Positions 18,293 to 48,603 of a stretch of 64,000 nt of DNA are shown piece after piece. The notes under the pieces are model-generated. The model searched no databases, was not told where the DNA came from, and saw nothing but the letters and a program-made list of their open reading frames with translations. Made by a program: the position numbers and the translations under genes. Position 1 is the first letter of the stretch, and each line of letters begins with the position of its first letter. The stretch comes from Alloyangia pacifica (lineage in GTDB: Bacteria; Pseudomonadota; Alphaproteobacteria; Rhodobacterales; Rhodobacteraceae): assembly GCF_003111685.1 (NCBI RefSeq), contig NZ_CP022192.1, positions 129,501 through 193,500 of the forward strand, in the 5' to 3' direction.

Positions 18293-19318
18293 TCAGGCCC
18301 GCAGCGCGCTGCGCAGCGTTTCGACCGGAGAACAGCCGAATTTCCTGCGGTAGTGTTCCGAGAACCGGCCGAGGTGGAAGAAGCCAAGCCCGGTCGCCAC
18401 ATCGGTGACCCGCGTGTCGGCGCCGGGGTTCGACAGTTCTTCCCATGCGCGCTCCAGCCGCATGTCGCGCAGCACGGTCATCGGGCCACAGCCGTGGCGG
18501 GCGCGAAACGCCGCCTGCAGCGAGCGCACGCTTGTCCCGGCCGCGCTGGCGATGTCCTCGATCATCAGCGCCGCGCCAAGGTTCTCGCGCATGAACTCCT
18601 CGGCGCGGCGCACCATGCGCGGCGCATGGCCCGGACGAGGGCTGGGCGCGTCGGCCTCGGTCGGCCGGACCTGTGACTGCAAGAGGCCCACCAACAGCGT
18701 GCGCTCGAGCTGCCGCCCCAGCGCCGAGCCCCGCCCCAGCAGGGCGGCGCCGCGCTGCGTCTCGGAGATCACGAACTGCAGCAGGCCGAGAAAGGACCGC
18801 CCCTCTCCGTCCGTCAGCGCCTTCGGGCCGTCAAAGCGCAGCGCCGCGCGGTGCGGCAGCCCGAACTCTGCCCGCGCCGCCTGCTCCAGCGCGCGCCGGT
18901 CGATCTGCAGCATGAGCTGCACGCAGTGCTCGCTCCAGATCATGCTGACCTCATCGTCGGGGTTGAGCACCCCGCCGCTGCCGCCACCGATCTCGTAGCC
19001 GCGCGCGCCGGTGTTCACCGAGGCATGGCCGTGCAGGGGAAACTGGAAGAGGTAGAACTGCTCGAGCGGGCCCGGCGCGATCTGGGTCTTCGCGCCATAG
19101 GTCAGCACGTTGATCGACAGGTCCTGCCCGTCGAGCCGGTTGTGCCGCGCCGCCAGCGGCCCCCGTCCCATCACCTCGAGGCGATGATCGCAATAGACCT
19201 GCGCCACCCGGGCCCGCGCCTCGTCCAGATCCGCCGTCGCAAAGAGACGATGGTTGCCAAGCGGCAATCCCTGCGGTCCCTCGGGACCGGTCTGAAGCTG
19301 GCCCATGAGATGCTCCAT
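18293..19318 (-). CDS. AraC/XylS-family transcriptional activator
   Basis: 341 aa; a second ATG at 19306 with GGAG six bases ahead is an equally good start and would give 337 aa. The N-terminal AraC-binding-like domain (about residues 25-200) and C-terminal double helix-turn-helix (IEDIASAAGTSVRSLQAAFR, then TDVATGLGFFHLGRFSEHYR) are of the XylS/NphR kind. It is divergent from the SDR-StyA-StyB-like operon, with two XylS-like direct repeats between them. By position it corresponds to the AraC regulator (IifR) of the Acinetobacter iif indole-oxidation operon. Confidence 0.88.
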   Translation of the reverse strand: MEHLMGQLQTGPEGPQGLPLGNHRLFATADLDEARARVAQVYCDHRLEVMGRGPLAARHNRLDGQDLSINVLTYGAKTQIAPGPLEQFYLFQFPLHGHASVNTGARGYEIGGGSGGVLNPDDEVSMIWSEHCVQLMLQIDRRALEQAARAEFGLPHRAALRFDGPKALTDGEGRSFLGLLQFVISETQRGAALLGRGSALGRQLERTLLVGLLQSQVRPTEADAPSPRPGHAPRMVRRAEEFMRENLGAALMIEDIASAAGTSVRSLQAAFRARHGCGPMTVLRDMRLERAWEELSNPGADTRVTDVATGLGFFHLGRFSEHYRRKFGCSPVETLRSALRA

Positions 19319-19358
19319 GCTCGCGTCGGGGGTCTTCCTTCAGCTCTAAAACATAATT

Positions 19359-19393
19359 TGCGCAATCCGGATCCCGGCTGCGCAATCAGGATA
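19359..19393 (+). promoter_or_regulatory. XylS-like direct repeats upstream of the indole-type oxygenase operon
   Basis: TGCGCAATCCGGAT at 19359-19372 and TGCGCAATCAGGAT at 19379-19392 match at 13 of 14 positions with a 20-bp period. Both resemble the XylS half-site TGCA-N6-GGNTA; the proximal one fits TGCG-N6-GGATA. They lie 64 nt before the SDR start codon, where an AraC-type activator would contact RNA polymerase. Confidence 0.75.
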
Positions 19394-19456
19394 GCGCGCA
19401 TCCGCGGCCCCCCTGCAAGCTTTCATTTGAGAAAAATGACACACAGGGAGCGCGCA

Positions 19457-46282: not shown

Positions 46283-47592
46283 GCTGGCTCGAGATCATCG
46301 CGCTGCTCGGCGGCGTGCTGGCGATGCTTTTTGCCATCGGCACCCCGGTCGCGCTGGCGTTCCTTGGCGCAAACCTGATCGGTGCCTGGCTGTTCCTCGG
46401 CAGCGGCGCGGGCATCGAGCAGCTGGTGCGCAACGCGTCCATGTCGGTCAATTCCTTCTCGCTCGTGCCGATCCCGCTCTTCGTGCTGATGGGAGAGCTG
46501 CTGTTCCATTGCGGCCTCGCCTACAAGGCGATCGAGGCGATCGAGCGCTTGCTGCACCGCCTGCCCGCCCGGCTCGGATGCGTCTCCGTGGTCGGCGGCA
46601 CCGCCTTTGCGGCGCTCTCCGGCTCGTCCATCGCCAACACTGCGCTCCTTGGCGGCACGCTGTCGCAGGAAATGCTGCGCCGGGGCTATTCGACGACGCT
46701 GGCGCTCGGGCCGGTCATGGCAGTGGGCGGCATTGCCGTGTTGATCCCGCCCTCGACGCTGGCGGTGATGCTCGGCTCGCTCTCGGGCATCTCGATCACC
46801 CAGCTGCTGATCGGCGGGCTGGTCCCCGGGTTGCTGATGGCCGCGCTCTTCCTGCTCTTCGTGATCCTCACCGGCCATTTCCGCCCGCAGAGCGCACCGC
46901 GCGACACCAGCGCCAGCGCCTACACGCTGGCCGAGCGGATCGTGCCCTTCCTGCGCGACGTGGTGCCGCTCTTCGGCATCTTCGTCGCGGTGATCGGCAG
47001 CATGCTCGCCGGGATCGCCACCCCGACCGAGGCCGCGGGTCTTGGTGCCTTTGCCGCGCTCATCGCCACCGCGCTCTACCGCAAGCTAAGCTGGGCAGCG
47101 CTGACCAAAGCGATGACCGAGACCGCGAAGGTCTCGGTGTCGATCCTCTTCATCATCGTCGCCTCGACGACCTTCTCGCAGATCCTGTCGTTCTCGGGCG
47201 CCACTTCGGGCATGTTGCAGCTGATCAACGCCGTCGACCCCACGCCGATGACGCTGATCGTCTGCATGCTGCTGATCCTGCTCGTGCTCGGCTGCTTCAT
47301 CGACCAGATCTCGATGATGATGATCACCCTGCCGATCTTCATGCCGCTGGCCCATGCCGCGGGCATCGAGGTCGTCTGGCTCGGGCTGATGATGCTCGTG
47401 GCGATCGAGCTCGGCATGCTGACCCCGCCCTTCGGCATCCTGCTGATGGTCATGCAGGGTGCCAGCCGCTCGGTGCCGCTGGTCAGCATCTACAAGGCCG
47501 CCGCGCCCTTCATCCTGATCGAGATCGGCGTACTGATAATGATGCTGATGGTGCCGCAGCTCACACTCTTCCTGCCCGCGCTGGTGCGCTGA
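46279..47592 (+). CDS. dctM: TRAP transporter large permease subunit (DctM)
   Basis: 437 aa, about 12 membrane helices. Family features: NSFSLVPIPLFVLMGELLF, GGTAFAALSGSSIANTALLG, GIAVLIPPSTLAVMLGSLSG, and GMLTPPFGILLMVMQG. It catalyses sodium-coupled uptake with DctQ and the binding protein. Confidence 0.92.
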   Translation: MSWLEIIALLGGVLAMLFAIGTPVALAFLGANLIGAWLFLGSGAGIEQLVRNASMSVNSFSLVPIPLFVLMGELLFHCGLAYKAIEAIERLLHRLPARLGCVSVVGGTAFAALSGSSIANTALLGGTLSQEMLRRGYSTTLALGPVMAVGGIAVLIPPSTLAVMLGSLSGISITQLLIGGLVPGLLMAALFLLFVILTGHFRPQSAPRDTSASAYTLAERIVPFLRDVVPLFGIFVAVIGSMLAGIATPTEAAGLGAFAALIATALYRKLSWAALTKAMTETAKVSVSILFIIVASTTFSQILSFSGATSGMLQLINAVDPTPMTLIVCMLLILLVLGCFIDQISMMMITLPIFMPLAHAAGIEVVWLGLMMLVAIELGMLTPPFGILLMVMQGASRSVPLVSIYKAAAPFILIEIGVLIMMLMVPQLTLFLPALVR

Positions 47593-47631
47593 CAGCCCCT
47601 TTTTCCAAGTCCAACAGTCCGGAGAACAAAA

Positions 47632-48603
47632 ATGAAAATCCGCTCCCTCAAAACGGCAGGCATGGCCGTTGCGGCAGCGCTCGCCCTGGCAAGCCCGCTC
47701 GCCGCGGCAGAGACCACGCTGCGCGCCATCACCGCCTTCCAGCCCGGCACCACCTTCGCCAAGCCCTTCGAGGATTTCGTCTCGAAGGTGAACGCGCAGG
47801 GCGAGGGCGTTCTGAAGATCGAGGTGATCGGCGGGCCCGAGGCCATGCCCCCCTTCGAGATCGGCAACGCGCTGCGCAACGGCATTGTCGACATCGCCAA
47901 CACCACCGCGGTGTTCCACGCCAGCCTCGTGCCCGAGGGCGTCGCCATGACCCTCGCCACCCGCCCGATGTCGGAGCTGCGCGAGAACGGCGGCTACGCG
48001 CTGATGAACCAGTTGCACGAGGACAAAGCCCGGATCCATTGGCTCGGCCGCCTGACGCAGGGCATCAACTACCACATCTACCTCAACGAGGCGCCCGAGG
48101 GCAGCAAGCTCGACGGGCTGAAGCTGCGCTCGGTGCCGGTCTACCAGGCCTTCTTCAAGGATCTTGGCGCCACCCCGATGCAGACCGCCCCGGGCGAGGT
48201 ATACACCGCGCTCGAGCGCGGCGTCATCGACGGCTATGGCTGGCCCTCGATCGGTGTCTTCGACCTTGGCTGGCAGGACAAGACCGGTGCGCGGGTGAAC
48301 CCCGGCTTCTACCAGGTCGAGACCGGCCTCTACCTGAGCCTCAAGACCTGGCAGTCGCTGTCCGAAGAGCAGCAGGCCTTCCTCAGCGACCTGATGATCG
48401 AAACCGAATCCTCCTCCTCGCTGGTGCAGGACCTTGCCGAGGCCGAGAAAGCCAAGCAGATCGAGGCAGGGATCGAAATGATCGACCTCGACGCGGATGC
48501 GGCCACCGAGTTTGGCGCGCTGGCGCAGGAGTCCGGCTGGAAACCGATCCTCGCGACCAGCCCCGAGCACGGCGCGAAGCTGCGCGAGCTCTTCGCCGAC
48601 TGA
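47632..48603 (+). CDS. dctP: TRAP transporter substrate-binding protein (DctP)
   Basis: 323 aa with a Sec signal peptide (cleavage near LAAAET). DctP-type features include a late conserved arginine region (LDGLKLRSVPVYQAFFKDLGATP) and PGEVYTALERGVIDGYGWP. It binds a carboxylate in the periplasm and passes it to DctQM. A hairpin terminator follows. Confidence 0.9.
   Translation: MKIRSLKTAGMAVAAALALASPLAAAETTLRAITAFQPGTTFAKPFEDFVSKVNAQGEGVLKIEVIGGPEAMPPFEIGNALRNGIVDIANTTAVFHASLVPEGVAMTLATRPMSELRENGGYALMNQLHEDKARIHWLGRLTQGINYHIYLNEAPEGSKLDGLKLRSVPVYQAFFKDLGATPMQTAPGEVYTALERGVIDGYGWPSIGVFDLGWQDKTGARVNPGFYQVETGLYLSLKTWQSLSEEQQAFLSDLMIETESSSSLVQDLAEAEKAKQIEAGIEMIDLDADAATEFGALAQESGWKPILATSPEHGAKLRELFAD

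Follow-up and report, generated by a model that had tools for sequence, protein, structure and literature searches.

The iif and ipo-dho indole operons of Acinetobacter and Pseudomonas syringae comprise an AraC-family regulator, a short-chain dehydrogenase/reductase (SDR; IifB), a group E oxygenase (IifC) and a flavin reductase (IifD), and IifCD together with IifB have been described as converting indole to dioxindole (PMC6221969). The part played by isatin in indole degradation was left as an open question in that 2018 review, on the grounds that the iif cluster contains no gene for its formation or use and that isatin had been proposed to be a dead end or an artefact (PMC6221969). The iad loci of Variovorax, Bradyrhizobium and Achromobacter take auxin via isatin to anthranilate, with iorB/iotA as marker genes (PMC9613470); roles were assigned to IadCDEFGHIJ in a 2025 preprint, the main text of which does not name iadA/iadB (PMC12633357). 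The subject of this work is a gene island of Alloyangia pacifica, contained in a window of 64,000 nucleotides (positions 129501-193500 of contig NZ_CP022192.1, in a genome of 5.17 Mb), in which genes resembling both systems lie beside genes for an isatin hydrolase (IsaH), for a fused monooxygenase/reductase (ACMR) and for an aryl-coenzyme A (CoA) ligase. Aerobic anthranilate metabolism proceeds via 2-aminobenzoyl-CoA in Azoarcus evansii, whose pathway likewise includes an ACMR-type fusion and an aryl-CoA ligase.

The island is made of known parts in a new combination. It contains the iif set of SDR, oxygenase, flavin reductase and AraC regulator, but differs from the iif and ipo-dho operons in having isatin hydrolase, IorAB and the flavoprotein pair CrtOa/CrtOb beside the indole genes, in that IifA was not found in the genome, and in its proposed product, which would be anthraniloyl-CoA rather than anthranilate. 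With the iad loci it shares the isatin intermediate, the IorAB (iadA/iadB) markers and MarR-family regulators, and IadI, annotated as a kynurenine formamidase, may correspond to the isatin hydrolase; unlike them it has CrtOab with an SBP5-type importer and StyA/StyB with an SDR as front ends, and Rieske IadDE were not found in the genome. Its ACMR gene, unlike that of Azoarcus evansii, is physically linked with a route through isatin, from which the CoA ester would be obtained directly. We consider it probable that the whole forms a composite catabolic island in which indole, and an indole-type compound taken up from outside, are degraded by way of isatin.

At the core of the island lies a single unit on the + strand, IsaH-CrtOa-MarR2-IorA-IorB-CrtOb, with gaps of at most 64 bases (transcription units were assigned from strand and gap length alone). 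IsaH (30186-30977, +) is the surest enzyme of the island, and its sequence makes a strong case for an isatin hydrolase converting isatin to isatinate. Among solved structures it matched 4j0n (isatin hydrolase B, which we take to be LaIHB of Labrenzia aggregata) over its whole length with 434.5 bits, compared with 296 bits for isatin hydrolase A and 25 bits for kynurenine formamidases, and it is the sole PF04199 match in the genome; in contrast to the 4j0n enzyme it lies in a fuller gene set. The metal ligands H73, H77 and D79, already pointed out in a preliminary description of this DNA, are present, and so is the GLAS signature at residues 223-226. The metal ligands of LaIHA are His69, His73 and Asp75, and GLQC/GLAS together with the metal site is the isatin hydrolase signature (PMC6117287). 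The nearest named isatin hydrolase loci are those of Alloyangia mangrovi (98% at the isatin hydrolase) and A. pacifica (97%), both Roseobacteraceae.

The most novel piece of the island is the uncharacterised flavoprotein pair CrtOa (30997-32568, +) and CrtOb (36787-38334, +), which the preliminary description, otherwise correct in its list of parts, had overlooked together with the two MarR regulators. Both belong to the flavin adenine dinucleotide (FAD) amine-oxidase/carotenoid-desaturase family and share with carotenoid desaturases (4rep, CrtI, CrtO) the fold, for which these are the best matches, and the FAD-binding motifs; they differ by their catabolic context and by an identity of 16-22% in fold alignments to 4rep and 4dgk. 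The cut-offs of the CrtO model (1000) and of crtI_fam (238.1) are missed by far, by CrtOa with 129.4 and 117.8 bits and by CrtOb with 162.3 and 119.6 bits, respectively. Among 385 class genomes, a sample not selected by isatin hydrolase, CrtOa (E at most 1e-60) was found in just 4. Each of these has a second match, which by its position is CrtOb, and each carries isatin hydrolase with CrtOa adjoining it. In A. mangrovi (L016) the matches to StyA and to CrtOa are both split in two, a pattern that a frameshift or an assembly error would produce.

Between these flavoprotein genes lie MarR2 (32565-33011, +; PF12802), the presumed regulator of the isatin operon, and the two subunits of an IorA/IorB-like 2-oxoacid oxidoreductase (33076-36781, +), the domains of which agree with what had been described: a thiamine pyrophosphate (TPP)-dependent IorA (33076-35220, +; PF02775) and an IorB with DUF6537 (35225-36781, +; PF01558, PF20169). 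IorA is well under the cut-off of the indolepyruvate ferredoxin oxidoreductase alpha model TIGR03336 (293.5 versus 650.9 bits), so that IorAB was not classed as an indolepyruvate oxidoreductase; IorB passes the subfamily model NF006179 (655.4 bits, cut-off 348) and misses the narrower TIGR03334 (45.8 bits, cut-off 205.8). Searching the solved structures with the IorA sequence gave no match at E 0.001. In three loci (L134, L135 and L138) from genomes with no isatin hydrolase match, IorA (67-72% identity) and IorB adjoin a tripartite ATP-independent periplasmic (TRAP) importer, with a Rieske protein (15480-16625) in L135 as well; this suggests that IorAB acts there on another 2-oxo acid, or on isatinate imported from outside.

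The linkage of these genes was scrutinized by scanning a species genome collection with the isatin hydrolase, which gave 145 relatives, of which the best 80 loci, leaning to close kin of the window's IsaH, were analysed. Gene calls in the fetched loci were made by script, identity thresholds were chosen per gene by hand, and the main counts refer to the 59 of 80 loci whose flanks each reached 9.9 kb or more, the 21 loci with short flanks being excluded. A flank of 10 kb barely reaches StyA in the layout of the window and stops short of the SDR, AraC, the ligase, TRAP and part of the importer, the ligase and TRAP genes lying more than 10 kb from IsaH and thus outside the fetched flanks for loci with this layout, so the counts for these six are lower bounds. 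Among the 59 loci, IorA and IorB were each found in 56, MarR2 in 55, CrtOa in 47 and CrtOb in 46; both CrtO genes were present in 46, neither in 12 and one alone in a single locus. The SBP5 importer gene was found in 45 of the 46 loci with both CrtO genes versus 0 of the 12 with neither, MarR2 together with IorAB in 44 of the 46, and IorA in 11 of the 12. By these counts isatin hydrolase and IorAB are near-constant partners, and CrtOab and the importer move as a block. The 46 loci show two main layouts (29 and 16 loci) and one other.

Similar associations were found at the genome level, in the 385 class genomes with the window's own genome left out and with five genomes (G104, G113, G196, G210 and G378) dropped for ACMR, as they had matches to its reductase part only. 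IorA was present in 12 of 13 genomes with isatin hydrolase (Fisher p 4.5e-10) and ACMR in 11 of 13 (p 2e-7; the ACMR of G294 is partial on its contig); counted by genus, both figures were 8 of 9 (p 3e-7 and 6e-6, respectively). These tests used hand-entered genome and genus lists and handle kinship to genus level at most. ACMR was also present in 29 of 45 genomes having IorA but no isatin hydrolase, versus 30 of 326 having neither. Since most parts recur in other genomes in other gene orders, the grouping exceeds chance. The repeated linkage in rearranged loci and the genome co-occurrence lend good support to the prediction, put forward in the preliminary description, that the parts act in one pathway. 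Its extension to every part is less even: StyA is visible in 5 of the 80 loci (a lower bound), the SDR3-FAH-cupin genes described below occur in 14 of 59, and the stretches L182/L183, which contain most of the other parts, have no recognised TRAP importer.

The indole arm consists of an AraC-family regulator (18293-19318, -; PF14525, PF12833) divergent from an IifB-like SDR (19457-20233, +; PF13561; the ATG at 19457 fits better than the called start at 19487), a StyA-like group E flavin monooxygenase (20271-21500, +; PF17885) and a StyB-like flavin reductase (21502-21993, +; PF01613), each with the Pfam domains expected from the earlier description. The nearest named model of the regulator is AndR, the anthranilate dioxygenase regulator (NF041686), at 192.3 bits and hence below its cut-off of 350. 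The best PDB chain for the StyA-like protein is 7z4x at 608 bits (presumably the indole monooxygenase VpIndA1, which the name of the PDB entry does not state), followed by 9lrq (558), 9j0h (205) and the styrene monooxygenase 3ihm (134), and the protein misses the styrene monooxygenase StyA model NF045732 (213.9 bits, cut-off 550). An indole monooxygenase fingerprint has been reported as S46-Q48-M50-V/I73-I76-A96 (PMC13101512); the positions read by eye from the alignment of the 7z4x search, in a numbering not anchored to StyA, are S45, Q47, Q49 (not M), V72, I75 and A93. By its closeness to 7z4x the oxygenase is probably of the indole-monooxygenase type.

StyA searches provide a test of linkage in samples not chosen via isatin hydrolase but evenly drawn: StyA was matched in 7 of the 385 genomes of the class sample and in 3 of the 69 genomes of the family sample, the own genome being counted in both. 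Setting the own genome aside, the identity of StyA reaches 64% or more in three genomes (G001, G418 and G428), and in 3 of 3 the gene lies next to IorAB. In these, StyB-StyA-SDR and AraC are convergent with the IorB end, unlike the layout of the window, while in L085 and L090 StyB is near the end of the ATP-binding cassette (ABC) importer. In G428 the contig breaks off inside IorA. Isatin hydrolase and CrtO are not visible in L181, which ends inside IorA. In G418 (L182/L183, adjoining stretches) StyAB-SDR-AraC, IsaH, CrtOab, IorAB, importer, ACMR, SDR2, RidA and ligase lie within about 28 kb, the order being importer-CrtOb, IsaH-CrtOa-MarR2-IorAB, StyB-StyA-SDR, AraC and enoyl-CoA hydratase, followed by ACMR-SDR2-MarR1-enoyl-CoA hydratase-acyl-CoA dehydrogenase-cupin-TE2-RidA-ligase. 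Among the best 80 isatin hydrolase loci, StyA of at least 55% identity was seen in five (L016, L017, L031, L085 and L090; a lower bound), which, having been found via isatin hydrolase, do not constitute an independent test. L017 comes from a cultured relative, A. pacifica DSM 26894, that has the same locus. Wherever it would be visible, the CrtO pair invariably accompanies StyA of at least 64% (L016, L017, L031, L085, L090, L141 and L182), and the SDR next to StyA is 75-77% identical to that of the window in L085, L090, L141, L181 and L182. On a quick IorA tree (77 sequences with more than 600 aligned residues; StyA being scored as absent where the fetched flank does not contain it), at least four changes of StyA linkage are required, even counting well supported branches alone.

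IifA, a member of the dienelactone hydrolase (DLH) family, had been noted as missing from the region, and this holds for the whole genome: the search gave three weak DLH places, none on the window's contig, the best at 43.6 bits and E 5.6e-11. The reported match strength of IifA is 1.1e-49 (Lin 2015, Table 2), and, given how weak the DLH matches are, a location of IifA elsewhere in the genome was rejected. The expectation that a StyA without isatin hydrolase is accompanied by IifA failed as a test: the neighbours in G138 are an extradiol dioxygenase and an amidase, in G169 (L171), whose StyA has 43% identity, they comprise an amidase of the formamidase type together with a Rieske protein, and DLH was found in 0 of 6 scanned StyA neighbours (three in L170, two in L171 and one in L172), some genes there being unscanned.

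Downstream of the indole genes and a hotdog thioesterase gene on the opposite strand (thioesterase 1, 22076-22471, -; PF13279) lies a cassette ACMR-SDR2-TE2-RidA-TE3. ACMR (22774-25059, +; PF01494 and PF00724), a fused FAD monooxygenase/old-yellow-enzyme reductase previously described as an aminobenzoyl-CoA monooxygenase/reductase fusion, passes the cut-off of NF006101 (PRK08255; 1219.9 bits over residues 1-760, cut-off 1078). It is followed by SDR2 (25056-25799, +; PF00106), which adjoins ACMR in L145 and L183 too, thioesterase 2 (25796-26224, +; PF13279), a RidA-family protein (26259-26651, +; PF01042), thioesterase 3 (26671-27036, +; PF03061) and MarR1 (27169-27633, +; PF12802; best PDB chain 3boq), the presumed regulator of the cassette. 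Judged by the known chemistry of such enzymes, by its context and by the presence of RidA, ACMR would be an enzyme of the 2-aminobenzoyl-CoA (or salicylyl-CoA) type. RidA has enamine deaminase activity and would suit an enamine product, which supports the 2-aminobenzoyl-CoA assignment, and it is possible that it acts after ACMR as an enamine/imine deaminase. ACMR is within reach in 19 of the 59 fully covered loci. The genes on the opposite strand, SDR3 (27725-28534, -; PF13561), a fumarylacetoacetate hydrolase (FAH)-family protein (28531-29373, -; PF01557; 420.5 bits to NF053535, cut-off 500) and a cupin (29400-29828, -; PF07883), together spanning 27725-29828, stand by the ACMR cassette mostly in Rhodobacterales. 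Their place is taken in L183 and L145 by enoyl-CoA hydratase and acyl-CoA dehydrogenase, and L182/L183 contain enoyl-CoA hydratases, an acyl-CoA dehydrogenase and another cupin; this swap perhaps reflects a different ring-opening route after ACMR.

The remaining units, all on the + strand, are a five-gene ABC importer of the peptide/SBP5 type (38491-43673, +; a binding protein, two permeases and two ATPases; PF00496, PF00528 twice and PF00005 twice), the aryl-CoA ligase (43885-45522, +) and a TRAP importer (45833-48603, +; DctQ, DctM and DctP; PF04290, PF06808, PF03480). The nearest solved relative of the ligase is the anthranilate-CoA ligase 4wv3 (283.6 bits), and it falls just under the cut-off of the anthranilate/benzoate-CoA ligase model TIGR02262 (365.5 versus 375.25 bits). 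Gene calls and Pfam scans placed every previously named gene, including the ligase, RidA, thioesterases, FAH, SDRs and both importers, in a long open frame rich in third-position GC (GC3) with its domain. The island is bordered by a P-type ATPase upstream (16380-18251) and by the periplasmic nitrate reductase NapA downstream (49672-52164; 1560 bits).

In the proposed route, StyA/StyB would oxygenate indole and the SDR would form dioxindole from indole-2,3-dihydrodiol, as in the iif operons. CrtOa/CrtOb would oxidise compounds of the (di)oxindole level, made internally or imported by the SBP5 system, to isatin, which IsaH is predicted to ring-open to isatinate. IorAB, as a TPP/Fe-S 2-oxoacid oxidoreductase, would then convert isatinate to anthraniloyl-CoA by oxidative decarboxylation, sparing the ATP of a ligase, and ACMR with SDR2, RidA and the thioesterases would make and process non-aromatic CoA esters, as in aerobic anthranilate metabolism, while the ligase and the TRAP importer may allow anthranilate or an acid like it, taken up from outside, to join that pool. 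The preliminary description had drawn a route through isatin to anthraniloyl-CoA, and the enzyme families that it named, with their linkage, are borne out by the sequence; the isatin-forming and IorAB steps are proposed from context. We infer the former because the CrtO genes lie next to IsaH, are kept in all visible loci with StyA of at least 64% and were not found in the three loci that have a tryptophan-dioxygenase-like gene instead nearby (L037, L038 and L061), and the latter because IorAB is a near-constant partner of isatin hydrolase and ACMR accompanies IorA in genomes without isatin hydrolase. The isatin-forming step is the weakest link and the IorAB step the next.

Several observations weigh against this route. 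Loci with CrtOab mostly have no StyA visible within 10 kb, so the substrate of CrtOab need not derive from indole, and the entry compound of the core may be something other than indole. The StyA of G138 (60%), a genome with no isatin hydrolase match, has an extradiol dioxygenase and an amidase as its neighbours. Of the 58 class genomes bearing IorA, 45 lack isatin hydrolase, some of them with an IorA of 70-72% identity (L134, L135), and the substrate of IorA may accordingly be broader. The NCBI name of NF006101 is salicylyl-CoA 5-hydroxylase. Finally, when a Variovorax locus had been deleted, a nine-gene iadC-K2 segment restored anthranilic acid (PMC12633357), and since this segment sufficed, iadA/iadB seem, as far as that account goes, unneeded for anthranilate in Variovorax. 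As a separate observation, AraC-SDR-StyA (38, 60 and 60%) in L170 of G138 precedes genes for a protein resembling extradiol dioxygenases, for an SDR and for an amidase, which together make up a different pathway of the indole type; the remaining StyA matches of the class sample (32-44%) are likewise in genomes without isatin hydrolase.

Some of these points would be explained if isatinate lost CO2 in another way to give free anthranilate, from which the ligase would make anthraniloyl-CoA, IorAB acting on another 2-oxo acid such as indolepyruvate. The presence of a ligase nearest to an anthranilate-CoA ligase, the frequency of IorA without isatin hydrolase and the sufficiency of iadC-K2 (PMC12633357) are in keeping with this; the presence of IorA in 56 of 59 isatin hydrolase loci, including 11 of 12 without CrtO, its tie to ACMR at the genome level even without isatin hydrolase and its distance from the indolepyruvate oxidoreductase cut-off make it unlikely. 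Alternatively, the isatin operon and importer could serve an imported compound not derived from indole, for example a marine oxindole alkaloid, with StyAB/SDR as a separate indole detoxification. The pairing of CrtOab and importer where StyA is not visible, as in most loci, would fit, but the position of StyA (at least 64%) next to IorAB in 3 of 3 other genomes from the StyA searches, and a StyA-IorA linkage gained or lost at least four times on the IorA tree, leave this rather improbable. Less probable again is an iad-like auxin locus, in which the isatin operon would degrade indole-3-acetate and the indole genes would be mere neighbours. The iad loci do have the isatin intermediate, IorAB (iadA/iadB) and MarR regulators in common with the window (PMC9613470), and the Rieske loci L142, L145 and L146 carry IorAB, L142 and L145 also isatin hydrolase. 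However, the three PF00848 places of the genome are all outside the window's contig; two are full-length Rieske proteins nearest to glycine betaine monooxygenase and far under the anthranilate 1,2-dioxygenase cut-offs, and the third is a partial frame resembling one of these two. With three Rieske queries, no Rieske alpha subunit was found in the gene calls of the best 80 of 145 isatin hydrolase loci, and MarR2 is closer to 3cjn (113.9 bits) than to the IadR-type 3cdh (58.1 bits), which binds auxin (PMC9613470). A Rieske-type iad locus was rejected on these Rieske results for the genome and the loci. That CrtOa/CrtOb are carotenoid enzymes unconnected to isatin, as their best fold and NCBIfam matches might suggest, was rejected as highly improbable on the missed cut-offs and the restriction of CrtOa, within the 385 class genomes, to those with an adjoining isatin hydrolase. 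The likelihoods given to these alternatives overlap and are not meant to add up to certainty.

Other genes stand beside isatin hydrolase or IorAB in a few loci. A tryptophan 2,3-dioxygenase-family protein (246-249 amino acids) adjoins isatin hydrolase in L037 (9126-9866) and L061 (9127-9867) and lies about 5.5 kb off in L038 (16275-17024); these are Paracoccus and Rhodobacter loci in which the CrtO pair was not found, and the protein may represent an alternative front end leading to isatin. A protein more distantly related to tryptophan dioxygenases (L148, 13390-14241, in G160) is near IorAB (IorA 57%) in a genome without an isatin hydrolase match. L145 (G202) combines within about 13 kb Rieske alpha and beta, isatin hydrolase, IorAB, RidA, a thioesterase, acyl-CoA dehydrogenase, enoyl-CoA hydratase, MarR, SDR2 and ACMR, which suggests that Rieske-type isatin loci may also proceed to anthraniloyl-CoA. 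The contig of L146 carries IorAB and lacks isatin hydrolase, which its genome, G294, has on a different contig. The Rieske and tryptophan-dioxygenase front-end labels apply to three loci each.

Beyond the composite island, which we continue to favour for the window, we tentatively propose, at somewhat less than even confidence, a modular isatin hub in which isatin hydrolase and IorAB, leading to anthraniloyl-CoA, would be a common lower unit with exchangeable front ends: the CrtO pair with its importer, StyAB/SDR for indole, Rieske IadDE for auxin, and the tryptophan-dioxygenase-like protein. If this is true, CrtOa and CrtOb would represent a new type of enzyme that forms isatin. Literature titles and abstracts gave none linking desaturase-like flavoproteins with isatin or IorAB with isatinate, a coverage that takes in little of the subscription literature and so does not show absence from print. 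The island gives a genomic context to the desaturase-fold pair CrtOa/CrtOb and suggests a role for iadA/iadB, auxin-locus markers to which the texts used here assign no step. That an indole-type monooxygenase is repeatedly linked, in rearranged loci, to isatin hydrolase and to candidate genes for the onward conversion of isatinate bears on the isatin question, and whether isatin is a true step of bacterial indole breakdown becomes testable in cultured marine relatives.

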